Made by a program: the position numbers and the translations under genes. A DNA stretch of 64,000 bases. Origin: Veillonellaceae bacterium (GTDB lineage Bacteria; Bacillota; Negativicutes; JAAYSF01). Below are positions 1-25,648 of this stretch, one piece after another. The notes below the pieces were generated by a model that saw only the letters and a program-made list of their open reading frames with translations, ran no database searches and was not told the DNA's origin. The stretch is taken from NCBI GenBank assembly GCA_012523975.1, contig JAAYSF010000085.1, forward strand, positions 1-64,000, written 5' to 3'. Position 1 is the stretch's first letter. Every line of letters starts with the position of its first letter.

Positions 1-1949
1 GAGATATTGAAAATACTGTACGCATAATCAATGAGAGCGTTAATAACGGTGCTTTCGGCCTCAATGAGATCAAAAATGAAATCCGCAACATTGAAAATCA
101 CACTGTGCTGATTACTAATAACATATTCGGACTAAATGAAATTAAAAACGAAGTCCGCAGCATTGAAAATGTCGTTAGTAACATTAATATCAATATTTTT
201 AATCAGAGCAATGTAATCAACCAAATTAACAATTCTGTCAACAGCAATATCTTCGGCCTCAATGAGATTAAGAACGAAATTCGCAATATTGAGAATCACA
301 CTACGCTCATCACTAACAATGTTTTCGGTCTCAACGAAATCAAGAATGAAATCCGCAATATCGAAAATCATACCGTTCTAATTACTAACACAGTCTTTGG
401 CCTTAACGAAATCAAGAATGAAATTCGCGCCATTGAAAACTTTGCCAGCAATGTAAATATCAACATTTTCAATCAAATCAATAATACCGTCAACGAAATT
501 AACAACTCTGTCAACAGCAACATCTTCGGCTTAAATGAAATCAAAAATGAAATTCGCAACATTGAGAACCATACCTCGCTTATCACCAACAACATTTTTG
601 GCCTCAATGAAATTAAGAATGAAGTTAGGAATATTGAAAACCATACAATATTGATAACTAACAATATCTTTGGCCTCAATGAAATCAAGAACGAAGTACG
701 AAACATCGAAAATGTCGTCGGCAATATAAATATTAACGTTTTCAATCAGATTAATAATACAGTTAACCAAATTAACAACTCTGTCAACAGCAACATCTTC
801 GGCTTAAATGAAATTAAGAACGAAATCCGCAACATTGAAAACCATACTACCCTAATCACTAATAACGTCTTTGGACTGAACGAAATTAAAAATGAGATCA
901 GAAACATTGAAAACCACACTACACTCATTACCAACAATATCTTTGGTCTTAACGAGATTAAAAATGAAGTCCGTAATATTGAAAACCTTGTCGGTAACCT
1001 GTCTTTCAATGTTGATACTTCTATCTTCAATCAAATCAACAATACCGTCAACCTGATCAACAATTCTGTCAACAGCAATATCTTTGGCCTCAATGAAATT
1101 AAGAACGAAATCCGTAACATTGAGAATCACACTGTTTTAATTACCAATAGCGAATTCGGCCTTAACGAAATAAAGAGCGAAGTTCGTAATATTGAAAATA
1201 TTGTCAGCAACCTCTCCTTTAACTTTGATACCAATATCTTCAATGAAGTCAACAATACCGTCAATCTTATAAATAACTCCGTCAACAGCGACATCTTCGG
1301 CTTAAACGAAATTAAGAATGAAATCCGCAATATCGAGAATCACACAATACTAATAACCAATAGCGAATTTGGTCTTAACGAAATAAAGAATGAAGTACGC
1401 AATATTGAAAATATTGTCGGCAACCTATCCTTCAATGTCAACACGAGTATTTTCAACCAAATTAACAACACTGTAAACCAGATTAATAACAGTGTAAATA
1501 ACAGCGAATTCGGCCTCTGCGAAATTAAGAATGAAATAAAGATGCTAGTCAATGAAATACCTGGTCAAGTATTCGATTTGACAACCGGAGCAGTCATCCG
1601 CAGTATGGAAGCCAGATGCATGGTGTTTAAGGTTATTAATACTTCGCCAAATGCCGTCAACGTTTCTTGGACAGTTTGGAATTATGGGGTCTGCCCGGCA
1701 AATTGCTTCTTCACTAATTCGTTTAACGTGGCACCGCGCTGCTCAAATGAACAATCCATTGAAATATTCGGACCAGGAGAAATGGATCCGAAACTGAATA
1801 ACTACGAAGTTACCATTTCAGGAATTGTTCCAGGCATCTATGTATTTACCGCATCTTCGGAACCTAATGGAGATCTAGTTTCCGCAAATACGTTTAAAAG
1901 CGGCGACTTCCTCGCCCGGGTGTTTAATACACCTTGCCCCGTCGATTAA
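1..1949 (+). CDS. Asn-rich tandem-repeat stalk protein with C-terminal head (5' end outside window)
   Basis: The frame is open from the first bases of the window, so the gene starts upstream; the first internal GTG at 105 is not a real start. About 15-16 units begin with FGLNEIKNE. Short units are 24 residues; long units of about 43-47 residues add an Asn-rich segment ending INNSVNSN. Ile, Leu and Phe recur at 3-4 residue spacing, which suggests a long coiled coil with Asn in many core-like places. About 28 N-x-S/T sequons (ENHT, INNT, INNS, NLS) fall at fixed points. The last roughly 130 residues (from about 1555) are non-repetitive, contain four Cys and look beta-rich, like a globular head. 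A fibrous surface, spore or appendage protein is my inference; no named family was recognised. It may be modified by the glycosyltransferase encoded next. Confidence 0.85.
   Translation, partial: DIENTVRIINESVNNGAFGLNEIKNEIRNIENHTVLITNNIFGLNEIKNEVRSIENVVSNININIFNQSNVINQINNSVNSNIFGLNEIKNEIRNIENHTTLITNNVFGLNEIKNEIRNIENHTVLITNTVFGLNEIKNEIRAIENFASNVNINIFNQINNTVNEINNSVNSNIFGLNEIKNEIRNIENHTSLITNNIFGLNEIKNEVRNIENHTILITNNIFGLNEIKNEVRNIENVVGNININVFNQINNTVNQINNSVNSNIFGLNEIKNEIRNIENHTTLITNNVFGLNEIKNEIRNIENHTTLITNNIFGLNEIKNEVRNIENLVGNLSFNVDTSIFNQINNTVNLINNSVNSNIFGLNEIKNEIRNIENHTVLITNSEFGLNEIKSEVRNIENIVSNLSFNFDTNIFNEVNNTVNLINNSVNSDIFGLNEIKNEIRNIENHTILITNSEFGLNEIKNEVRNIENIVGNLSFNVNTSIFNQINNTVNQINNSVNNSEFGLCEIKNEIKMLVNEIPGQVFDLTTGAVIRSMEARCMVFKVINTSPNAVNVSWTVWNYGVCPANCFFTNSFNVAPRCSNEQSIEIFGPGEMDPKLNNYEVTISGIVPGIYVFTASSEPNGDLVSANTFKSGDFLARVFNTPCPVD
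3..1545 (+). repeat. Tandem 72-bp coding repeats in short/long order
   Basis: At DNA level the stalk is built from 72-bp units (24 codons) with longer units of about 129-141 bp interspersed. The order is mostly short, short, long in the first half and short, long in the second half. Units differ mainly at synonymous positions and at Ile/Val, so the protein is conserved while the DNA has drifted. Such arrays can change length by recombination. Confidence 0.85.
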
Positions 1950-1995
1950 TCCGCTGTAGTATCGAATGAACCAATCATTTAGAATATAGCGTTTG

Positions 1996-2028
1996 TGTGA
2001 AATGCCCCGTACAGCGGGGCATTTCACA
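1996..2028 (+). terminator. Hairpin terminator after the repeat protein
   Basis: A perfect 14-bp inverted repeat (TGTGAAATGCCCCG / CGGGGCATTTCACA) with a 5-nt loop lies 47 bp after the stop codon. It lacks a strong T run, so termination efficiency is uncertain. Confidence 0.65.
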
Positions 2029-2093
2029 TATCCGCCGCTTTATGAATAATATACCACGAGTGCTATATCCATCTGATGGTAGGAGGCCGAAAA

Positions 2094-4907
2094 ATGTGCG
2101 CAACTGAAAACAATCTAAATTCCCTTGATGAAATTCTCGAGAAGTACAATATAACTGATACCATTGCTGCCGCAGCTGAATGCGGTTGGCCATATGTATG
2201 TCAAGAGTTCAATCGAATCGTAAACGAGGAAAACTTCGCCAGCGAAGAAGAAAAATGTATTTTTATCGATCTCTTTTTTTGCCAAATCATTAAAAGCATC
2301 TCACCTGCAATCGACATCTCACAGTTCTGGGACCTTGTAAAAGAGTGGTTTAATGCCCGCAAGCTCGAAAGCCGCAACGGCCATTTATCGCCCAATGAGA
2401 AAATTGCCCTTATCCATTTTTGCCTTAATCTGCGCCAAAAATTGCGTGAATTTGTAATTCTTGTTCCATTTAGTGAAGTTGAAAAACTCAGCGACGAACA
2501 TCAACGAATGTTACTAGCTATATGGCGTATGCTCTTTTTTGAGCCTTTTGCCGCCATGAATCTCTACTGGAACCCTACCCACCCGGAAGAAGAATTACTG
2601 GAGCAATGCAGGCACAGCGGGTACAAAGGATTGGTTGCCGCCAGTATGTATGATCCCTTTTCGGCCGACGATTTTAATATTGACTCAGAACAGCTGATTA
2701 CCGCCCCCATTCCATTTTGTTATAAGGCAATTATCGTCTACTGGATGGTAAATACACCTTACTTTAACGCTGAAGAAAAACACCGTCAAAAGCTTATGAA
2801 ATATATTCCCAACCTCTGCCGGGCTATTACCCGTCATCCGGAAATTCTCTCTACTATGTTCTTTCTTACCTTTGTCCAGGAAGTCATGACCGGTTTGTGG
2901 CGAGGTTCCTATATCGGCGGCAATAACCTGAACGCTCTTGCCGCATTCGGCGATTTTATCAGCTTCACAATTAACCGGGCGATGCCTCAACCAAAACCTA
3001 AACTTGTCCGCAAGGATTTGAGCAAAGGTGAAAAAATCAGAATCGGCTACATCTCGCGCAACTTTTACAAACAGGCCGTTAGCTGTTATATGATCAATCG
3101 AGTTGTTAATCATAATCCTGATAAATTCGAGATAATTACCTTTGCGCTCGGCGATTATCATGACAATGTCTCAGATATGTTCGAGCAACATAGCGACAAA
3201 TTTATCCGCCTTGAAAACATGACAGACTTTCCCGGCATTATCGGAAAAATTAGGGAGAACGACTTAGATATCCTAATATACACCGATATTGGCATGGACC
3301 CTGTTACTTATATTTTGTCAGGCCTGCAGCTAGCCCCTATTCAGTGCGCCTTGGTTGGGCACGGGACTTCTACCGGTATGCCGACTATTCAATACTACAT
3401 CAGCGGCGACTTCGAAGCACCGAATGCGCAGCAGCATTATCGCGAAAAGCTTATAACACTGCCAAAATCCGGTGCCGCCCAGTACCTGCCTATGACCCCT
3501 GACCCACAGGTAACCCGTGAGGAATTAGGTATACCTGAAGATGCTGTTGTTTTTATCTCGTGTGCTAATGGCATTAAGCACGGTCATCTCCGCGACGAGC
3601 TCTTTGTTGAAATTCTTAAACAGGCTCCGAACGCATGGATAGTCTTAAAGCCCTTTGCGACCCATGCTAGCATTGACCGAGTTTTTACTGAACGCATAAT
3701 CGGCAAGGCCCGCGATGCCGGAGTTAATAATCGCTTACTCATTTTGCCGCCAATCGGCCAGACAAAGCATGTCCTTGGCTTGCTGGCCATTGCCGATATT
3801 CAGTTGGACAGCTATCCTTATGGCGGTTGGACGACAAACATGGAAGCGCTGCACGCCGGGCTCCCCATAGTTACTCAAGAAGGTGAGCTGGCTCGCAGCC
3901 GCTGGGGGGCAGGCTTGCTCCGAGCCCTTAATATCAATGAGGGTATTGCCGCCAATGAGCAGGAATATATCGACTGGGCAGTACGTTTTGCTAATGATGA
4001 GAACTTGCGTAAATGGATAAGCGAGCAAATAACAGCTAAGGTTGAAGACGTCCTATTTAATGGCCCCGCCGCCCAACCTGATTACGAACAGGCCCTTACC
4101 GACATTTATCAGCAGGAATGCAGCCGGGCTGAGCTTGAGGAAACGGCCCGCCGTACATGGAAGTTTTCCGGCGAGTACCATAGAAACACCGATGCTATCA
4201 CTATCGCTACTTCGCTGAGTCTGGAAAATGTCAACATTCAAAAAATCGCTATGCGAACTTGGCAAACTGCCGGGTTCCGCCTTGTTTCTGTTAATCCGCT
4301 CGATTCAATCGCCGCCTTACAGCATCAATTTCCGGATGTCGAATTTATTGCTGCGCCGCGCGACGGACGTCAGCAATACGGTAAACCTTTGGTCTATTTT
4401 GATGATTTACTGTCATATTTCAAAAACCGCGAAATCCCGCTTTGCGGAATTATCAACCCAGACATTTGCCTATTGAATAATAGTTTTTATGACTTTATCA
4501 AAAAAGAGGCACCTGACTCATTTATTTTCGGTTCAAGGGTCGATGTTGATTCACTGTCATCGCCGGAAGGTCAATTTTATAATAGCGGCTTTGATTACTT
4601 TTTCTTTGATCGCGAAATACTCCAGTATTACCCTGAGCAGAACTTCTGCCTTGGCCTCCCATGGCTAGATTATTGGGCTGTAATTGTGCCGCTTATGCGA
4701 AAAGTGCCTGTAAAGCGAGTAACAGCTCCTGTAGTCCTGCACGTAAAACACCCCCAAACCGCTGATGCTATAACCTGGATTAACCTTGGCATGGCTCTAA
4801 GCTCTCATTTTCATCCACCCTTTGACCTATCGCCCGAAACCATGACCCGTTACGCTAATGAGACATTGACGATTATTGATAAATTGTCACAGGAAGTTGC
4901 GCTTTAG
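2094..4907 (+). CDS. GT41-type (SPINDLY/HMW1C-like) glycosyltransferase with extra C-terminal domain
   Basis: The start is ATG 2094, seven bases after AGGAGG at 2081-2086; an in-frame ATG at 2076 would lie upstream of that site. The 937-residue product has an alpha-helical N-terminal part (about 1-300, no obvious TPR motifs). A GT-B core follows (about 305-690) with IRIGYISRNF, ALVGHGTSTGMPTIQYY, VFISCANGIKH, IVLKPF and LDSYPYGGWTTNMEALHAGLPIVT, the pattern of O-GlcNAc transferase/SPINDLY and HMW1C enzymes (GT41). These cytoplasmic enzymes move a sugar from a UDP donor to Ser/Thr or to Asn in N-x-S/T. Residues about 698-937 form a second domain shared with the glycosyltransferase at 22620-24566. 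Because the sequon-rich repeat protein sits directly upstream, I infer it as a substrate. Linkage and sugar are unknown. Confidence 0.8.
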   Translation: MCATENNLNSLDEILEKYNITDTIAAAAECGWPYVCQEFNRIVNEENFASEEEKCIFIDLFFCQIIKSISPAIDISQFWDLVKEWFNARKLESRNGHLSPNEKIALIHFCLNLRQKLREFVILVPFSEVEKLSDEHQRMLLAIWRMLFFEPFAAMNLYWNPTHPEEELLEQCRHSGYKGLVAASMYDPFSADDFNIDSEQLITAPIPFCYKAIIVYWMVNTPYFNAEEKHRQKLMKYIPNLCRAITRHPEILSTMFFLTFVQEVMTGLWRGSYIGGNNLNALAAFGDFISFTINRAMPQPKPKLVRKDLSKGEKIRIGYISRNFYKQAVSCYMINRVVNHNPDKFEIITFALGDYHDNVSDMFEQHSDKFIRLENMTDFPGIIGKIRENDLDILIYTDIGMDPVTYILSGLQLAPIQCALVGHGTSTGMPTIQYYISGDFEAPNAQQHYREKLITLPKSGAAQYLPMTPDPQVTREELGIPEDAVVFISCANGIKHGHLRDELFVEILKQAPNAWIVLKPFATHASIDRVFTERIIGKARDAGVNNRLLILPPIGQTKHVLGLLAIADIQLDSYPYGGWTTNMEALHAGLPIVTQEGELARSRWGAGLLRALNINEGIAANEQEYIDWAVRFANDENLRKWISEQITAKVEDVLFNGPAAQPDYEQALTDIYQQECSRAELEETARRTWKFSGEYHRNTDAITIATSLSLENVNIQKIAMRTWQTAGFRLVSVNPLDSIAALQHQFPDVEFIAAPRDGRQQYGKPLVYFDDLLSYFKNREIPLCGIINPDICLLNNSFYDFIKKEAPDSFIFGSRVDVDSLSSPEGQFYNSGFDYFFFDREILQYYPEQNFCLGLPWLDYWAVIVPLMRKVPVKRVTAPVVLHVKHPQTADAITWINLGMALSSHFHPPFDLSPETMTRYANETLTIIDKLSQEVAL

Positions 4908-5035
4908 TAAACCATATTATGTATTAAATTTGAGAAGTTGCGGTTTAAGTAATTGTTTTAGTAACACATCAAGTTTCATCTTCATAAATTATAATAGAGC
5001 AAACATATCCACTAAACATAAGGAGGAAGATCTTA

Positions 5036-5764
5036 ATGAGTAATACACCCCTACATCACTTCTGTAATAGGGAATTCGTAAAACAGCTTTGTGACCTTCA
5101 GGATAGGAACGTATTGTTATTAATGGTCGACGGTTCAGCAGTATTTGGCCGTATTGCCCGTATTGATGATTGTGTGCTTAGCGTCGTTCCCCCTGTAGGT
5201 GTAACAGCATTAAACTTTGTTCAATTCCGTCCGCCGAATGGAACACTGCCATTACCGCTAATCCTCAGTCAAATATTCATTGATGTATGTGACATTGCCC
5301 ATGCTATCGAAGGCCCGTTTGTTTTCTCGCCGCTGTTCCCGTTACACTTACCAGGCGGAATAGGCCCAAACGGCGTAGATGCGGCAGGAACCCAAATTCC
5401 GCCTGCAGTTCAGTCGATTATCGAGCAAATCACTACCGGTACGGGCGCCCAAGGATTCCGGAGCGAGCCGTCAGCTGCTCTCCCAGGCCGTCAGCAGCAT
5501 GAACTGCTTGAAGAACTTTGCGACTTGGAAGGCCAAAATATTGCTATTACCACACTCGGCGGATGGACGATTGGCGGCCAGTTAGGCGAAGTCGATGATT
5601 GTGTATCCCTTATCAGCACCGGCACCAGTATCTTCCCGCCAATTGTATTCCTCGGTGTCGTCCTTGTCTTCGGCCCTGCCTTCCCGCTTGGGTTTATCGT
5701 TCTGCTAGGCACTTTCAGAGTTTGGAGCAATCTCAAGACTTTAACCCAGGTAATTCTCCCCTAG
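5036..5764 (+). CDS. Two-domain Sm-like small protein, copy 1
   Basis: ATG 5036 follows AAGGAGGAAGATCTTA. The 242-residue protein contains the same motif twice: a helix ending in LCDL, then xNVxLxxxDG-x-xxGxIxxIDDCVLxV (about residues 12-50), and again ELCDLEGQNIAI...GGWTIGGQLGEVDDCVSLI (about 160-195). This strand-turn pattern resembles the Sm1 motif of Sm/LSm barrels, but that is a fold guess, not a family hit. Each half is followed by a hydrophobic, Pro-rich tail. It is a close paralogue of the gene at 7668-8372. Function is unknown. A structural or spore/surface role is possible given the neighbours. Confidence 0.8.
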   Translation: MSNTPLHHFCNREFVKQLCDLQDRNVLLLMVDGSAVFGRIARIDDCVLSVVPPVGVTALNFVQFRPPNGTLPLPLILSQIFIDVCDIAHAIEGPFVFSPLFPLHLPGGIGPNGVDAAGTQIPPAVQSIIEQITTGTGAQGFRSEPSAALPGRQQHELLEELCDLEGQNIAITTLGGWTIGGQLGEVDDCVSLISTGTSIFPPIVFLGVVLVFGPAFPLGFIVLLGTFRVWSNLKTLTQVILP

Positions 5765-5770
5765 CTAACA

Positions 5771-5800
5771 AAAAAACTGTCGGCAAGCCGACAGTTTTTT
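5771..5800. terminator. Bidirectional terminator
   Basis: AAAAAACTGTCGGC / GCCGACAGTTTTTT with a 2-nt loop. It has A/T tracts on both sides and sits between the convergent genes ending at 5764 and 5804, so it can serve both. Confidence 0.9.
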
Positions 5801-5803
5801 CTT

Positions 5804-7453
5804 TTAATCTGCTCTTTTTTCCCATACTTCACAGCCTTGAAATGGATTTGCCGTTCCTAAATATAAAGTTCCCTCAGACGAGACAAATAACGTCCTAATG
5901 CCGTAGTTATAGCGATTGCACAATCCGTTAAGCGATACCGGCACCCAATGCACCCCGTCTCTTGTTTTCCATAAGTCACAGCCTATTCTTCGCGCGCCAA
6001 GAGTATAAAGCAGCTCGGTAATTCCCGGATTGAATACTGAGCTGAGGAAATCGAGGAAAGGTGACAAACTCCCAACCTGCGGCAAAAGCTCGTCAAGCAG
6101 TGCCGGGAAATAGGGAACGTATATCGGAATAAGATCATTCCAGCTCCATGTTCCAAGATACAACTCGCCATTAAAAGCTTGAATCTGCCAGCAATAGCCG
6201 TTGGTTATATCCCCGAATCCGGATGGAAAACCGCTTAAAGCCTGCCCGCGCACACCGGTAATAGGTTGGGTCGGCACAACCGGTTTACCGCCAATAACAA
6301 GTTCCCATCTATCATCTTTGCTTACTCTAATAACGTCAAAGCCCTTAGGCGGCACGATAGGATCGTCCGGATTTATGCTTCTTATCCCGACCTCTATTGC
6401 CGTTCCTATATATATATAATCATTAAACACATCAAGTGACCATGGATGCTCATTACGGGCATCACCGGCACCCTTATCAACTACCAAAACCCAATCATCT
6501 TTTTGTGGTGTGGCCCCATTTGTTCTCCAAAGCTCAAAGCCTGTCGGAAGCGCCGTGCCAACATATAGGTGACCATTAAAGCTTAACAGCACGTCAACAT
6601 TGCCGCGCGGGTTTTTATCTGGATCGCCGTTTAAATCAATTTGAGTCCAGCCGTTATTTTCCGGATCAGTGCTGGAGAACAGCGCTGCTGCGGCAACACC
6701 CATCAGTGGGAGAGCACCCATATACAAAACGCCGTTATGTTCAACCATATACCGGGTTGAGAATCCCTGTACGCTTTGCGGCAAGGTATTCCAAGTTAAA
6801 CCGTCGGTCGACTTTAGAATTATTACGTTAGGACTTAATGGGGTGAGTGCGCCGGCATACAATGCATTGTTATAATTGACCATAAACCGGAAACCTATAT
6901 TCATTGGATCCTGCGGCGCTTTGTATACTCTTTGCCACGACTCAGATCCATCCTTCTTGTAGCGCCATATCTCACCTGCAAAATCCGGGTTCTGCGGTAT
7001 AAGAATTTCAGGTATTGGGATATCGCCAAATATTTGATTGCTTAGGATTGAGTAGGGTATATTCCTGGCAGTACCGACATAAAGATACTCTCCTAATTCA
7101 GCCATCGACCAAGCATAGTTATTTTGCTTAGCGTTATCACGGTTTGCTGAATCAAAACCTCTAACCGGCGTAATTTTCCTGAATCCGCCAATATTAGGAG
7201 CCGGGCTTAAAAGTTGGTTTGCCAACCCCCAGCTCGTTATCGAATTCAAGCTTACAATGTATTCGGGAAATGCCGTGTGAAATCTTGCCGGGTTGCTTAA
7301 TGACGCATTTTCCAGCATTACAATATCATTGTCTACATAACTTACTTTTCCAACTACGAATATCTGATTGTTTAAACCTAGTTCCACTACATTGCCGGTT
7401 TCCCTTTCCAAGTAATCCCTGATATCCTCATAACTGTTCATTCTGTTTTTCAA
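5804..7453 (-). CDS. Beta-propeller-like protein with N-terminal Sm-like segment
   Basis: About 549 residues. The N-terminal roughly 75 residues (YLERETGNVVEL...VGKVSYVDNDIVMLENA) match the pattern of the Sm-like domains encoded on both sides. The rest is a repeat-built propeller: blades carry LYVGT, LYAGAL, LYMGAL, IYIGTA, LYLGTW and LYLGTA, often followed by ELW or EVW. No signal peptide is visible. The start is either TTG 7453, seven bases from a run of seven G, or ATG 7441, which has a weak ribosome site. Ligand and role are unknown. The shared N-terminal segment suggests co-assembly with the flanking Sm-like proteins. Confidence 0.8.
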   Translation of the reverse strand: MKNRMNSYEDIRDYLERETGNVVELGLNNQIFVVGKVSYVDNDIVMLENASLSNPARFHTAFPEYIVSLNSITSWGLANQLLSPAPNIGGFRKITPVRGFDSANRDNAKQNNYAWSMAELGEYLYVGTARNIPYSILSNQIFGDIPIPEILIPQNPDFAGEIWRYKKDGSESWQRVYKAPQDPMNIGFRFMVNYNNALYAGALTPLSPNVIILKSTDGLTWNTLPQSVQGFSTRYMVEHNGVLYMGALPLMGVAAAALFSSTDPENNGWTQIDLNGDPDKNPRGNVDVLLSFNGHLYVGTALPTGFELWRTNGATPQKDDWVLVVDKGAGDARNEHPWSLDVFNDYIYIGTAIEVGIRSINPDDPIVPPKGFDVIRVSKDDRWELVIGGKPVVPTQPITGVRGQALSGFPSGFGDITNGYCWQIQAFNGELYLGTWSWNDLIPIYVPYFPALLDELLPQVGSLSPFLDFLSSVFNPGITELLYTLGARRIGCDLWKTRDGVHWVPVSLNGLCNRYNYGIRTLFVSSEGTLYLGTANPFQGCEVWEKRAD

Positions 7454-7667: not shown

Positions 7668-8372
7668 ATGAGTAAAACACCATTACATCACCTGTGTAAT
7701 ATAGAATTTGTAAAACAGTTATGTGATCTTAAAGATAGGAATGTATTGCTTTTAATGGTTGACGGGTCTGCTGTCTTTGGCCGTATTGCCAGGATTGATG
7801 ACTGTGTCCTTAGCGTCGTACCTCCGATAGGCGTAACTTCCTTGAACTTTGTTCAGTTTCGTCCGCCTAACGGAACTCTGCCCCTGCCGTTAATAGTAAG
7901 CCAAATATTTATTGATGTATGCGACATTGCCCATGTTATCGAAGGTCCTTTTATAGTTTCACCGCTATTACCGCTATTGTGCTCAAACGGCGTAACAACA
8001 GATTCCACCGTTCCTCCCGCCGTACAATCAATCGTAGAACAAATTACTACCGGAACCCAAGGTATGAGAAGCGAGGCGTCAGCAGTTGTCCCAGGCCGCC
8101 AGCAGTGTGAGTTACTTGAAGAACTATGTGAATTAGAAGGTCAAAACATTGCTATTACAACACTTGGCGGATGGACCATTGGCGGTCAGCTTGGTGAAAT
8201 TGATGATTGTGTATCAGTAATCAGCACCGGTACCAGTATATTCCCGCCCACTGTTTTCCTCGGCGTAGTTTTAGTCTTCGGACCGGCCTTCCCACTTGGG
8301 TTCATCGTCTTGCTAGAAACTTTTAGAGTATGGAGCAATCTAAGAACCCTAACCCAGGTAATTCTGCCATAA
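7668..8372 (+). CDS. Two-domain Sm-like small protein, copy 2
   Basis: ATG 7668 follows AAGGAGGTTTAAATCC. The 234-residue protein is nearly identical over long stretches to the product of 5036-5764. The middle linker is shorter and there are scattered substitutions such as VIS for LIS. Both internal repeats are kept. The upstream intergenic stretch (7454-7667) must hold divergent promoters for this gene and the propeller gene; I saw no clear -35/-10 pair. This is gene duplication on either side of a functionally linked gene; role unknown. Confidence 0.8.
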   Translation: MSKTPLHHLCNIEFVKQLCDLKDRNVLLLMVDGSAVFGRIARIDDCVLSVVPPIGVTSLNFVQFRPPNGTLPLPLIVSQIFIDVCDIAHVIEGPFIVSPLLPLLCSNGVTTDSTVPPAVQSIVEQITTGTQGMRSEASAVVPGRQQCELLEELCELEGQNIAITTLGGWTIGGQLGEIDDCVSVISTGTSIFPPTVFLGVVLVFGPAFPLGFIVLLETFRVWSNLRTLTQVILP

Positions 8373-8473: not shown

Positions 8474-8992
8474 CTAATCGGCAGCTTGCTCGTTATCGGG
8501 GAGACAAGCCTCAATCTGCTGGGCCGTCAATATGACTGCTCCTGCATTGACTGTTGTAGTCGCATCATGTTCTCCGTTTAGAGCGGCAACGATAATATTA
8601 GTCGCCCGCAGGGTGTAAGTTACCTTACCAATCTTATCAATTGCCGGTACAGTATCAAAATAAAGAAGGACGGCATTGCGAAAAACAGTGGCTGACGATG
8701 TTTCAGCGCCTTTGCTTTCCCCCCGTATAGCGCTCTGATGAACGTGATATATTACTGAGCCGTCCCGCAGCAGTTCAAAGGTCGTTTCAGCCCAACTGCC
8801 GTCTGCGCTGTCGTTAAATGTGGCGCTCCAATTGACATTAGCATACAGCAGCACGCCGGATGGTTTATGCTTGAGATTAATCTTAGCTTTAGCCAACTCA
8901 ACAGTCTTTCCTGCTGGCAAGGAATTAGAAGGCGGTAAAACAGAACTTCTTTCTTTGTTCATAACTTTACGGACCTTTGTAAACTCAACCAT
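8474..8992 (-). CDS. Single-copy beta-rich surface-type module protein
   Basis: 172 residues, one module: AGKTVELAKAKINL...VNWSATF...TFELLRDGSVIYHV...LLYFDT...TYTLRATN...GAVILTAQQIEA. The same module occurs twice in the upstream gene. The pattern (RDG strand, then a TYTLRA strand near the end) recalls jelly-roll domains in phage or exosporium-type surface proteins, but I cannot name the family. No signal peptide. The ribosome site AGGAGG lies inside the last codons of the upstream gene, 9 bases from ATG, so the two are translationally linked. Confidence 0.75.
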   Translation of the reverse strand: MVEFTKVRKVMNKERSSVLPPSNSLPAGKTVELAKAKINLKHKPSGVLLYANVNWSATFNDSADGSWAETTFELLRDGSVIYHVHQSAIRGESKGAETSSATVFRNAVLLYFDTVPAIDKIGKVTYTLRATNIIVAALNGEHDATTTVNAGAVILTAQQIEACLPDNEQAAD

Positions 8993-8995
8993 CCG

Positions 8996-10147
8996 CTACC
9001 GCCTCCTTTTCATATGCCTATGCTTGCTTTTCTTTTTGACATTATCTCGCTCAATTAGTTGAGCTGCCAAAGTTACCGGCCCGACGCTTGCAGCAATTGA
9101 AACCGACGACCCGTCAGCCATGACAGGGTCGATTATCGTTGTATTGGAAGCCCTTAAAATGTAAGTATTTATGCCCGATTCTATTTCCCCGGCTAGCGGC
9201 ATATCCAGATAACTTAAATCTGCAATTTCAAAGGTTGCCGTCTCGATTGAACCTGTCGCTTCGGCGATGAAAGTCTGTACCGCTGTTTGGGTTGTGCGAT
9301 AAATTATTGTTCCGTTGCGCAATAGTTCAAATGTAACGTTAGCTAAGCCAGACGATATAATCTTGGCCGGCTCCTCATTGCTTGTTACTCTTAGGCACCA
9401 GTTGACTAATGCCGTCAGGAATATGCCCTCTTTATCGTCCGCCCCCACTTCCAGGCAGGCTAATTCAACTGTCTCTCCTTCCGGCAGCGCCGTAACTAAC
9501 GGGATAGTTGCGGGCATTGGCGCACTACTTTGATTAATAAATACCTTTTCGACACCGTTAATTTCCGGCTCATTATTTTCATCTGCCGACTCACTGCGAG
9601 TCCAGGCTTCTGTTTCTTGCGCAATAAGTGTAACTGCCCCCGCTGCAGCTGTAACGACGGGAACCTCGTCACCTGAAAAAACGCCGGTTTGCGTAAATAA
9701 GGCTATATCGGCAGCTCGCAAAGTATAAGTAATTTCCTTGTCCTGACTCAGCAACGAGTTATTATCAAAATATAATAAGGACGCTACTTCGTAGGTTGTG
9801 GTTGTTTGCGTAACAGCAGCAACCCCGAAATCTTTTTGCCGCAGGGTTTGCGTCACCTGGTAGATGACTTCCCCCTCCCTCACTAGCTGAAAAGTTACTT
9901 CAGCAAAGCCGTTTTCATCTAATTCTTCTGAAGGCGGGATAGTAAAAGCAGCACTCCAATTAACTTCCCCCTGTAACAGCACTCCGCCAAAACCGTTTGA
10001 TAAATCTAACTTGACGGTCGCTAAATCTACTGTACCGCCCTCAACTAAAACCGTTGAAAAAGGTATACTTGAGCGCGCATTATGCGCATAAACTACCGTT
10101 TCCCGGATTTCTCCGTAATCCGCCACAGCATTCACCTTCTTTTCCAT
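8996..10147 (-). CDS. Double beta-rich surface-type module protein with basic tail
   Basis: 383 residues holding two copies of the module seen alone in the next gene. Copy A (about residues 27-180) has VNWSAAF, TFQLVREGEVIYQV and TYTLRAAD. Copy B (about 215-365) has VNWCLRV, TFELLRNGTIIYRT and TYILRASN. It ends in a Lys/Arg/His-rich tail (KKKSKHRHMKRRR). No signal peptide or membrane segment. The start is ATG 10147, or GTG 10126 with AAGGTG six bases before it. First gene of a two-gene operon; probably structural (spore or cell surface), which is inference. Confidence 0.75.
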   Translation of the reverse strand: MEKKVNAVADYGEIRETVVYAHNARSSIPFSTVLVEGGTVDLATVKLDLSNGFGGVLLQGEVNWSAAFTIPPSEELDENGFAEVTFQLVREGEVIYQVTQTLRQKDFGVAAVTQTTTTYEVASLLYFDNNSLLSQDKEITYTLRAADIALFTQTGVFSGDEVPVVTAAAGAVTLIAQETEAWTRSESADENNEPEINGVEKVFINQSSAPMPATIPLVTALPEGETVELACLEVGADDKEGIFLTALVNWCLRVTSNEEPAKIISSGLANVTFELLRNGTIIYRTTQTAVQTFIAEATGSIETATFEIADLSYLDMPLAGEIESGINTYILRASNTTIIDPVMADGSSVSIAASVGPVTLAAQLIERDNVKKKSKHRHMKRRR

Positions 10148-21401: not shown

Positions 21402-21629
21402 GTGGTCGATGACCGAAAGTCTGGTTGCTGTGACTGTTGTAACGACATTCGCGATATTGTTGCCTGCGTTTGCAGCCTTGATAAAGAATTTGAATGCGTC
21501 GAAGAAGCGTTAGGTCATTGTGATAACCAAACTAAAGCTAAGGTGCTTACTTGTGTAATTCTGCGCGAAATTAAAGAGCTTGATCACAAGCTCAATCGCA
21601 TTATACGCCATTTAAAATGCCCGCAGTAA
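21402..21629 (+). CDS. Small Cys-rich protein, unknown
   Basis: 75 residues from GTG 21402 with AGGAGGGTAATTAGA before it. Cys cluster near the start (GCCDCC, then ACVCS, FEC), more Cys at positions about 50 and 73, and a helical charged C-terminus. Good ribosome site and a terminator after it support a real gene. No family recognised; metal binding or a disulfide-rich spore protein are both possible. Confidence 0.65.
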   Translation: MVDDRKSGCCDCCNDIRDIVACVCSLDKEFECVEEALGHCDNQTKAKVLTCVILREIKELDHKLNRIIRHLKCPQ

Positions 21630-22619: not shown

Positions 22620-24566
22620 ATGATTAGGGATTTGCGCGTTGGTATCCCAATTGTCGGCAGTAAAGGCTGGCTAGGCGGCGTTTCACATATGGAGCTCCAC
22701 GTTAAAGCCGTCACTGCGCTGCCTAAAGATGAGCGCCCGCAGCTCTTTCTTGTTATTACTGACGACTCGTTTGAAAGTTACCAATTTTACCGTTCTTGGG
22801 TCACTTTGTTTGATAGCGTGATCTATATAGGATCTGACTGTGAAAAGGTTTCAGCTATAACAGAGTTGCCGGTTATCCACTGTAAAAGCTGGGATGAGCT
22901 TTTTACCATAATTGACTTCTTTTTTCCGGTTAGTTTTAATGTCCTTCCAAATCACTGTGCGGCTTCATGGATCCACGATTTCCAGCATAAACACCTGCCA
23001 GATTTTTTCCCTGCTCATGACATTGCCTTGCGCGACGATCTTTGTCAGCGTATTGCCGATCAAGCTAAACTGGTTTTCTGCAGCAGCCGCGCGGTCGAAA
23101 GTGATTTTAAACGGTTTTATCCTGATTCCAAGGCTTTGACGTATGTATTGGCGCTGCGCATAAAGCCCGAACCTGAATGGTATGAAGGTGATCCAATTGC
23201 AGTCCAAAATAAGTATGGCTTACCGGATGAGTTTGTACTTTGCTCAAATCAATTTTGGGTACATAAGAATCACCGTCTGTTGTTCGCGGCTATTGCCCAA
23301 CTGCGTCAAACAGGTCAAGATGTTCATCTGGCCTGTACAGGTTTGCCGAATGATTTCCGCTGCCCGGACTATATGGACCAACTTAAAGCATATATCGAAG
23401 AACTGGGGATTGCTGACCTTATCCACATTTTAGGGCAAATTCCGCGCCAGGATCAGATTCAGCTTATCCGCCGCTCACTGTTTGTTGTGCAGCCCTCACT
23501 GTTCGAGGGGCTTAGTCTTATCGTGCAGGAATGCCGGGCCTTAGGGAAAACAATCGTCTTGTCGGATCTGGATGTTCATATAGAACACGAATATGGAGTT
23601 TACTTTAAGCGAGCAGATAGCAAAGACCTTGCCGCTAAAATGCGTCAACTTGTTTATCACGCTAAACCGGGCCCAGATACTATGCGGGAAATCGAGGCCA
23701 GGCTGCAAGCTGAAGGGCTGACAATCGGGTATGGAAAATCTTTCTGTAAAATGGTCGAGCAAGCCCAAGCATTATTCAACACTAACAGACCGCCTTCGAC
23801 TGACTCACCAGTTCTTATTGCCACATCACTTGCACTATCGGCTGATATGTCCAGTCAACGGCATGCTATCGATAGTTGGCTGCAAGCAGGGTTTGCCGTA
23901 GTCTCATTAAACAGGCCCGAAGATATTTCGGCACTTAAGCGTGAGTTTCCCGATATTAGCTTTGCTGTTTTAAGCCATAACGGTGGCAACAATTATAACG
24001 CGCGACAAGTTTATCTAAATGATTTGCTAAATTACCTACGACAGAGCAATACCGCAGTTTGCGGCATAGTAGAGCCTGATATTTGCCTTTATGGAAGTAA
24101 TTTAGTGGCCGCCATTGCTAAAGAAGCTGTTAACTGCCTGATATATCAAGAAAAAACTAGCATCGAAGGTCTTCGCTGCTTTGAGGGAACGGCCTTTCCC
24201 GGACCAGGCTGTATCTTTTTCGACCGTCAAATTTTGGCTTGCTATCCGAATGAGACGTTTAGTCTAGACCAGCCCTGGTGGGATTACTGGGCCATTCTTA
24301 TTCCGCTTATCAATAAAATCCCGATTAAACATGTGACAACACCATTTGCTTACCACGTCACTCATAGTCAGCATTATGATATTGATATTATGATATCACT
24401 CGGCAGCATTCTGGCTAAATATGCCCCGCCCCCCTTTGAACTGTCTGGCCAGACTTTAGCAAAATACCAGACAATTATTGCCCAAATCATCAGCAACCAC
24501 TCGCTTGACGTTGCCATCTATAATCTTAACGTCAACGATATAGCTTACCGCGAGGTGAAGGCATGA
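22620..24566 (+). CDS. GT4 glycosyltransferase fused to the C-terminal domain shared with the GT41-type enzyme
   Basis: 648 residues; ATG after GGAGGATTTATA. Residues about 1-390 are a GT-B enzyme: [49 protein letters not shown], and [21 protein letters not shown] (GT4 E-x7-E). Residues about 397-648 begin [20 protein letters not shown] and contain [27 protein letters not shown] and [12 protein letters not shown]. The GT41-type protein at 2094-4907 has the same domain (IATSLSLENVNIQ, GIINPDICL, WLDYWAVIVPLM). The domain may be a second sugar-binding or transferase unit; unknown. Confidence 0.85.
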
Positions 24567-25648
24567 AAAAAGCATTAATTACCGGAATAACCGGGCAGGA
24601 TGGTGCCTATCTGGCTGAATTCTTACTTAATAAAGGGTATGAAGTGCACGGTATAAAACGACGTTCATCGCTGTTCAACACCCAGCGAATTGATCATCTT
24701 TACCGGGATACCCACGAAGAAAATGTACGTTTTATTCTGCACTACGGCGATTTAACTGATTGTGCTAATCTTATCCGCATAATGCAAGAAGTACAGCCTG
24801 ATGAGGTTTATAATTTAGCTGCTCAAAGCCATGTTAAAGTATCTTTTGAAACCCCCGAGTATACTGCTAATAGTGATGCGGTTGGCACTTTACGGCTGCT
24901 TGAGGCTATCCGCATTCTGGATTTAACCGAAAAAACAAAATTCTACCAGGCTTCAACCAGTGAATTATTCGGTAAAGTACAGGAAGTACCGCAACGAGAA
25001 ACTACTCCCTTTTATCCGCGCAGCCCATATGCGGCAGCCAAATTATATTCGTATTGGATAACAGTTAACTACCGCGAGGCCTATAATATATTTGCCTGTA
25101 ACGGCATCCTTTTTAACCACGAATCACCGCTGAGAGGCGAAACCTTTGTCACGCGTAAAATTACCAGAGGCGTCGCCCGCATCAAACTTGGGTTACAGGA
25201 TGTATTCTACCTTGGCAACCTGAACGCAAAACGTGACTGGGGCTATGCCGGTGATTACGTTGAGGCCATGTGGCTAATGCTGCAGCAGGAGCAGCCAGAT
25301 GATTTTGTCATTGCTACTGGGGAAACTCATTCAGTCCGCGAGTTTGTAGAGCTAGCCTTTAAGAATGTCGGGATAAATATCATTTGGCGTGGCACCGGCA
25401 TCGACGAACATGGTGTTGATGAAGCAACAGGCAAAATCGTGGTTAGAGTCGACCCGCGCTACTTCCGTCCTACCGAAGTTGATTTATTGTTGGGAGACGC
25501 TGCCAAAGCCAAAGCAAAACTTGGCTGGCAGCCTAAAGTCACCTTTCCGGAGCTAGTCGCCATGATGGTCAAAGCGGACACCGACCAGGCAAAATGCGAT
25601 TTACTCTGCCAAAGCAATGGATTTCGAGTCCCTCAGTATGAAGAATAA
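24563..25648 (+). CDS. gmd: GDP-mannose 4,6-dehydratase
   Basis: 361 residues; ATGA overlap with the previous gene. [21 protein letters not shown] (NADP motif), [30 protein letters not shown], catalytic [12 protein letters not shown] and [17 protein letters not shown] are diagnostic of GMD. It makes GDP-4-keto-6-deoxymannose, precursor of fucose, rhamnose and perosamine-type donors. No following reductase or aminotransferase is in the window, so the final sugar is unknown. Confidence 0.94.

Follow-up and report, generated by a model that had tools for sequence, protein, structure and literature searches.

A stalk gene beside a GT41-type glycosyltransferase gene: a candidate cassette for a glycosylated spore filament in a Negativicute-like Firmicute

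A stalk gene and a GT41 gene lie together at a contig end

We found a gene for a long repeat protein, hereafter the stalk, directly followed by a gene for a GT41-type glycosyltransferase, and observed that this pairing is conserved in related genomes. Judging from the sequences and predicted folds, we give an even chance to the interpretation that the two genes form a sporulation cassette for an exosporium-type glycosylated filament. The window analysed is the first 64 kb of the 84.6-kb contig C85 from a draft genome of 2.47 Mb. The host is a spore-forming, Negativicute-like Firmicute related to Pelosinus, and the named relatives of the GT41 enzyme come from Pelosinus and from Bacillota/Negativicutes MAGs. 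The main features of the window are the following.

1-127 (no strand): exact 127-bp overlap with the end of contig C18, an assembly k-mer end that joins the two stalk gene parts
3-1949 (+): open reading frame, 3' part of the stalk (filament) gene; the 5' part is on contig C18
2094-4907 (+): GT41 glycosyltransferase gene; the open reading frame opens at 2076, ATG 2094 is the preferred start
2094-3020 (+): N-terminal all-helical domain of GT41, to about residue 315 of the open reading frame; 17 helices, no TPR match
3021-4145 (+): GT-B catalytic core of GT41, residues 316-690
4185-4904 (+): C-terminal GT-A-like domain of GT41, about residues 704-943, no Pfam match
4963-4991 (+): sigma-K-like promoter, AAC...CATAAATTA, upstream of the neighbour gene 5036-5764
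5036-5764 (+): LSM-like neighbour gene with a sigma-K-like promoter, a probable sporulation neighbour
24563-25648 (+): gmd, GDP-mannose 4,6-dehydratase (TIGR01472, 627 bits), first step to GDP-fucose

Because base 1 of the window is the end of contig C85, the reading frame at 3-1949 is open at its 5' side. A length of 127 bp is typical of assembly k-mers. Joining C18 and C85 across this overlap gave a stalk protein of 1,111 aa with 44 N-x-S/T sites. For the GT41 gene, ATG 2094 is probably the true start, since a GGAGG ribosome site lies between it and the upstream start at 2076.

The stalk is built from 24-residue and longer coiled-coil-like units (FGLNEIKNEIRNIEN...). Its N-terminus is Cys-rich with a CC motif (GCCCDPNETAAIIACICDLKRKIECVVDC...) and shows no recognisable hydrophobic signal peptide. 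This agrees with action in the cytoplasm, which had been proposed from the sequence alone. The C-terminal head (~1572-1946) is a predicted beta-sandwich (pLDDT ~80). In the structure model, the helical shaft was of low confidence as a monomer and the head alone was usable. The shaft holds helical FGLNEIKNEI repeats and no collagen Gly-X-Y repeats. Stalk matches to Rad50, MCP and Herpeto_peptide in NCBIfam and Pfam were rejected as coiled-coil or low-complexity noise.

The same genome has another stalk gene (L054, contig C42, 6407-7570, +), which is shorter, encodes a different C-terminal head and has a sigma-K-like promoter upstream. A small Cys-rich open reading frame of ~75 aa in the window (21402-21629, +) matched the N-terminal anchor domain of the stalk only (E 8.7e-10), and weaker anchor-only matches occur in short open reading frames of G001, G064, G054, G038 and G021.

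The GT41 enzyme is neither a typical NGT nor a typical SPINDLY or OGT by sequence

Pfam PF13844 matched the GT-B core with 109 bits (cut-off 25; 2e-31), which assigns the enzyme to GT41. The AlphaFold2 model (pLDDT 87) has 17 helices, followed by the GT-B core, one long helix and, at the C-terminus, a domain of mixed alpha/beta structure. We observed no Pfam match to a TPR array, a feature of SPINDLY (SPY) and OGT, in the GT41 protein. The sequence-only reading, which had described a GT41-type enzyme with a helical N-terminus and no TPRs, is borne out by these results. In the predicted model, a non-TPR all-alpha domain packs on the GT-B core, as in the architecture of N-glycosyltransferases (NGTs).

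Comparison of the whole protein and of its core gave different nearest relatives. Foldseek placed SPY and OGT first by E-value, and by query TM-score ApNGT led the list (0.47, rmsd 6.5; others 0.37-0.41, mostly with rmsd 10-15). The NGT profile alignment spanned the helical domain (positions 104-668), whereas the SPY and OGT alignments did not. A profile of the helical domain alone matched no solved structure, so the likeness to the NGT AAD comes from the joint profile and fold search. Core profile matches were strongest for SPY (6e-45) and OGT (3e-40) and weaker for NGT (6e-17). On the NCBIfam NGT equivalog NF049992, the enzyme scored 50 bits against a cut-off of 1000. A TpsB-linked NGT-like reference protein, from an E. 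coli plasmid record of sheep-farm origin in which its gene lies beside a TpsB gene, scored 587 bits on the NCBIfam NGT model.

In a maximum-likelihood tree of the GT-B core, a phylogeny that the sequence-only reading had suggested, all 19 family members formed one clade (100/99). The core branched apart from the HMW1C enzymes and other NGTs, which sat on a separate long branch, and the family clade was also separate from SPY.

We mapped published active-site residues onto the enzyme after confirming the published numbering on the sequences. Q333, A334, G428-H429, K501, Y582, T586 and T587 were invariant in a 14-row alignment. In NGTs, Arg177 and Asp215 of the AAD read Thr/Ser at +2, and their alanine mutants are inactive (PMC10507012). 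R177 maps to Y229 (Y/F/C/S in relatives) and D215 to T272 (T/E/D/K/A and others), and the dyad is missing in 20/20 aligned relatives; this mapping is of moderate confidence, as it lies on a low-confidence stretch of the profile alignment. The enzyme retains NGT G369-H370 as G428-H429; SPY and OGT have G-Y there. The phosphate-binding Lys common to NGT, OGT and SPY (SPY K665, OGT K842) is the invariant K501.

The fucose-pocket residue Y744 of SPY fits fucose and excludes GlcNAc (PMC9715652). It maps to Y582; XcOGT and TtOGT also have Tyr and NGT has Phe at this position, so the residue is not decisive. SPY H495 and S496 are needed for activity, their mutants being dead or strongly weakened (PMC9715652). 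H495 (H558 in OGT) and S496 align to Q333 and A334, which are conserved in the family and leave the enzyme without the active-site His. Because of this replacement, the enzyme is not expected to be a standard O-fucosyltransferase. It thus fits neither the standard NGT type nor that of SPY/OGT; by the features examined it falls outside the NGT family and shares only its style of architecture.

The C-terminal GT-A-like domain had no match in Pfam or among PDB sequences. We applied the GT-A label for three reasons: the order of the secondary-structure elements, an N-[SP]-D motif that is conserved, and the occurrence of stand-alone copies next to glycosyltransferase genes. Its relatives are stand-alone proteins beside GT41 genes, and the domain also occurs inside a GT4 protein of the window. 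That GT4 protein, with the same C-terminal domain as GT41, is directly followed by gmd (22620-25648, +). We infer that the GT-A-like domain could perform a second transfer step.

Sequons exceed chance but vary among partner stalks

About 28 register-fixed sequons had been noted in the visible part of the stalk, and we counted 29 N-x-S/T (x not P) in the reading frame 3-1949. They take the form ENHT in short units and INNT or INNS in long units, with some NLS. The shaft has 41 sequons; 2,000 residue shuffles gave 22.4 ± 3.9 and at most 37. A permutation of residues within register columns (194 unique units from nine genomes) set 191 observed sequons against 124 expected. The mirror motif S/T-x-N was raised almost as much by the same column permutation (96 vs 67 expected), so part of the sequon signal reflects the block structure of the units. 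The mirror excess came mostly from the two closest genomes; in the remaining genomes the sequon excess was larger (sequons 87 vs 64, mirror 57 vs 51).

We assessed these data against HMW1C-like N-glycosylation in the cytoplasm, in which an AAD-like helical domain would read N-x-S/T in the stalk and the enzyme would place a hexose on Asn. The excess over both residue shuffles and the register-preserving permutation is consistent with such a reader, as are the free variation of x in ENxT and INx[ST], the ApNGT-like architecture, the NGT profile alignment through the helical domain and the retained G-H motif. Other patterns are at odds with it. Asn persists in the INx[ST] slot with A, I or L at +2, and in the ENx slot with V, I or L at +2. 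Partner stalks of orthologous enzymes differ widely in sequon number (G001, 72; G074 pieces, 52; G049, 7; G123 fragment, 5), so the sequon pattern is real but neither constant nor required for the pairing. The missing R177/D215 dyad, the separate clade with its long NGT branch, the closer SPY/OGT core profile and the low NGT equivalog score likewise argue against it. We therefore consider HMW1C-like N-glycosylation unlikely. The earlier claim of an HMW1C-like enzyme holds for the architecture of the whole protein, where ApNGT is the nearest match by query TM-score, but not for N-glucosylation of sequons, given the separate clade, the absent dyad and the sequon-poor stalks. We rejected sequon density as proof of N-glycosylation, since the mirror motif is also raised and some partner stalks are sequon-poor.

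A variant treats the family as a third GT41 type, a non-TPR clade with an AAD-like domain. Its enzymes would read N-x-S/T by residues other than those of HMW1C, N-glycosylate spore filaments in the mother-cell cytoplasm and extend the sugar with their own second domain. From the sequences we regard this as rather improbable. If true, it would mean oligosaccharyltransferase-independent N-glycosylation of a spore-surface protein in Firmicutes.

The stalk and the GT41 subtype occur together

We surveyed stalk and GT41 genes in 61 relatives, and searched for the stalk N-terminus in 301 genomes of the class as well. A full-length GT41-GTA protein is present in 5/61 relatives (G000, which is the genome of the window, G001, where it is cut by the contig end, G002, G038 and G049), and the stalk occurs in the same five. 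Strong stalk N-termini (E < 1e-9) were found in 8/301 class genomes (G000, G001, G002, G049, G064, G074, G103 and G123), all of which have GT41. In G038, the contig starts inside the stalk gene and the 3' end is kept beside GT41. All nine stalk genomes thus carry the GT41 subtype, usually as the next gene.

The sequence-only reading had suggested checking whether the two genes stay adjacent in related genomes; the stalk gene lies directly upstream of GT41 in six of them (G001, G002, G038, G049, G074 and G103). The order in G000 follows from the two overlapping contigs, and in G064 one C11 peptidase gene lies between stalk and GT41. The flank in G123 was unread, both contigs ending near the genes. 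In the core tree, the stalk-linked GT41-GTA enzymes form one subclade (96/96) inside the family clade. Because these enzymes form one subclade and the pairing is conserved, clade and neighbourhood are linked to repeat proteins; the lack of such a link had been named beforehand as grounds for abandoning the pairing. The proposal of a dedicated transferase-substrate pair thus gains from both gene order and clade linkage.

These data bear on the alternative that GT41, although part of the same spore-surface locus, has another protein or a glycan as its substrate, with the sequons a by-product of an Asn-rich coiled coil. A sister clade in the same class (L043-L051) consists of GT4-GT41 fusions whose neighbours are quite different, namely Cys-rich coat-like proteins or type 1 secretion genes; more glycosyltransferases are encoded at 13.7-25.6 kb of the window; and the second stalk of the same genome has no GT41 gene beside it, all of which would suit a different substrate. 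Against this, wherever the flanks could be read the GT41-GTA subtype and the stalk occur together, and the clade of an enzyme agrees with the type of its partner. We consider another substrate quite unlikely, and from the conserved pairing we expect that GT41 probably modifies the stalk.

In several genomes the sister-clade gene adjoins that of a Cys-rich FEIPDF protein; its neighbours in G046 and G009 are type 1 secretion genes, accompanied in G009 by RTX-type proteins. A GT41 gene is frameshifted in G123 (L115, 4449-7146), and a stalk copy in G064 has frame breaks (L100, ~4000-7000); these could be assembly errors in repeats, or decay.

Stalk genes have sigma-K-like promoters

The host genome encodes SpoIVA (403 bits) and sigma-K (sigK, 359 bits, above the curated cut-off). 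We scanned for a sigma-K-like pattern ([AC]AC, 14-18 bases, CATANNNT[AG], within 150 bp upstream). Such a promoter, a consensus match only, lies upstream of 9/10 stalk genes in eight genomes; the sites at stalk genes are CATANNNTA sites. The pattern was present at 12/20 cassette and neighbour genes compared to 0.35 expected from shuffles, and at 0/44 other genes of the window (0.38 expected). It had been relaxed by one base after the sequences were seen; the strict consensus gave 7/20 compared to 0.22 expected. The GT41 gene itself has a sigma-K/E-like promoter in G074 only. A scan of the sister-clade genes gave no promoter signal near their starts.

These data suggest that the stalk is likely a spore-surface filament, going by promoter motif and architecture. 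An ordinary secreted adhesin or phage-type fibre unrelated to spores could share the repeat shaft and beta-sandwich head, whose nearest folds include weak matches to carbohydrate-binding modules, but a signal peptide is not recognisable in the stalk, no phage genes were seen around it and nearly all stalk genes have the sigma-K-like promoter, which makes such a protein very improbable.

The LSM-like gene at 5036-5764 (+) has a paralogue at 7668-8372 (+). Both share the LSM-like start and each has a sigma-K-like promoter, and they are probably further sporulation genes. The flanking genes at 5804-7453 (-) and 8474-10147 (-) encode a beta-propeller-like protein and two similar-looking proteins of no known family.

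Proposed route of modification and sugar donor

In the sporulation-cassette interpretation, the stalk, with its Cys-rich anchoring N-terminus, Asn-rich helical shaft and beta-sandwich head, would be made late in the mother cell. Lacking a recognisable secretion signal, it would be assembled onto the spore surface as an exosporium-type filament. A mother-cell spore-surface filament is the simplest reading, and it would also account for the way a soluble cytoplasmic enzyme could modify a stalk that has no export signal. The soluble GT41 would put the first sugar on many repeats while the stalk is still in the mother-cell cytoplasm, and the fused GT-A-like domain would add a second sugar.

The acceptor would more likely be Ser/Thr than Asn: an O-type link is, on sequence grounds, about evenly poised between right and wrong, while an N-type link seems unlikely. 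The sequon excess over chance counts against this interpretation, as O-linkage would not need it. The donor would more likely be a small hexose, for example GDP-fucose, than UDP-GlcNAc. In G000, fcl on contig C18 (GDP-L-fucose synthase; NF047922, 503 bits, cut-off 500) is ~2.1 kb away from the stalk start, and in G001 a GDP-L-fucose synthase gene (504 bits) lies ~2 kb from the stalk start. gmd is within 3.5 kb of GT41 in G002 and G064. The flanks read in G038, G049, G074 and G103, some of them short, have no GDP-fucose genes, so that such genes are near the cassette in only 4/9 genomes, several contigs being short. These genes are suggestive of a GDP-fucose donor and, together with the SPY-like pocket tyrosine, would favour an O-linked deoxyhexose.

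Comparison with known systems

Most of what is known about spore-surface filaments and their sugars comes from Bacillus and Clostridium. In Clostridioides difficile, the gene for the transferase SgtA is located just upstream of a spore filament gene, and SgtA puts O-GlcNAc on Thr in the repeats of BclA3 (PMC7157674). Among known systems, the cassette would resemble SgtA/BclA3 most in its way of working. Both have a spore-surface repeat filament (predicted here), a dedicated transferase gene next door and many modified sites in the repeats (putative in the cassette). BclA3, however, has GPT collagen repeats where the stalk has a helical shaft, and SgtA is another, metal-dependent enzyme where the cassette has a GT41 with a second, GT-A-like domain (PMC7157674). 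For the new setting in a Firmicute that had been proposed earlier, SgtA/BclA3 is a precedent with another enzyme (PMC7157674).

Like HMW1C/NGT enzymes (ApNGT, AaNGT; PMC10507012, PMC3983070), the cassette enzyme is a soluble GT41 with a non-TPR helical N-domain, the G-H motif and the phosphate-binding Lys, and its gene adjoins that of a large N-x-S/T-rich surface protein. It differs in its separate clade, its lack of the R177/D215 dyad and its extra GT-A-like domain, and its target would probably be a spore filament of a Firmicute, whereas NGT acts on a two-partner-secreted adhesin. With the SPINDLY protein O-fucosyltransferase (PMC9715652) it shares the best core profile match, the pocket tyrosine (Tyr744 = Y582), the catalytic Lys665 (= K501) and GDP-fucose genes close by; it differs in lacking TPRs, in having Q333/A334 for H495/S496 and in its clade.

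The L-BclA and F-BclA tip fibrillae of Bacillus endospore appendages also have a long repeat shaft and a C-terminal beta head (PMC11952670). L-BclA shares the Cys-rich N-terminus and a CC motif in its N-terminal connector, and F-BclA has a putative transferase gene nearby (PMC11952670). The stalk differs in lacking collagen triplets. Its head matched ENA very weakly, and a search for ENA (PF13157), run without a positive control, gave no match in the 61 relatives. Since it lacks collagen repeats, has an enzyme of a different family and gave no ENA match, the cassette would not be a member of the SgtA/BclA3 or Bacillus tip fibrilla systems.

Within the literature covered by our search, no paper described such a stalk-GT41 pair. 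The best reading is that the GT41 clade is a new subfamily and that the locus encodes a sporulation filament with a dedicated GT41. These findings suggest that Negativicutes that form spores arrived at a glycosylated filament of this kind with unrelated components: a helical repeat shaft takes the place of collagen, and GT41 that of SgtA. The enzyme clade combines an NGT-like architecture and an OGT/SPY-like core with active-site residues of its own, and could reveal how the acceptor (Asn or Ser/Thr) and the donor change among GT41 enzymes; a putative natural substrate with many sites is encoded beside it.

A clostripain-type C11 peptidase gene adjoins the stalk gene in G000, G001 and G064 (L039, 2070-3290; L052, 2263-3516; L100, 2482-3696), and the peptidase may process the filament.
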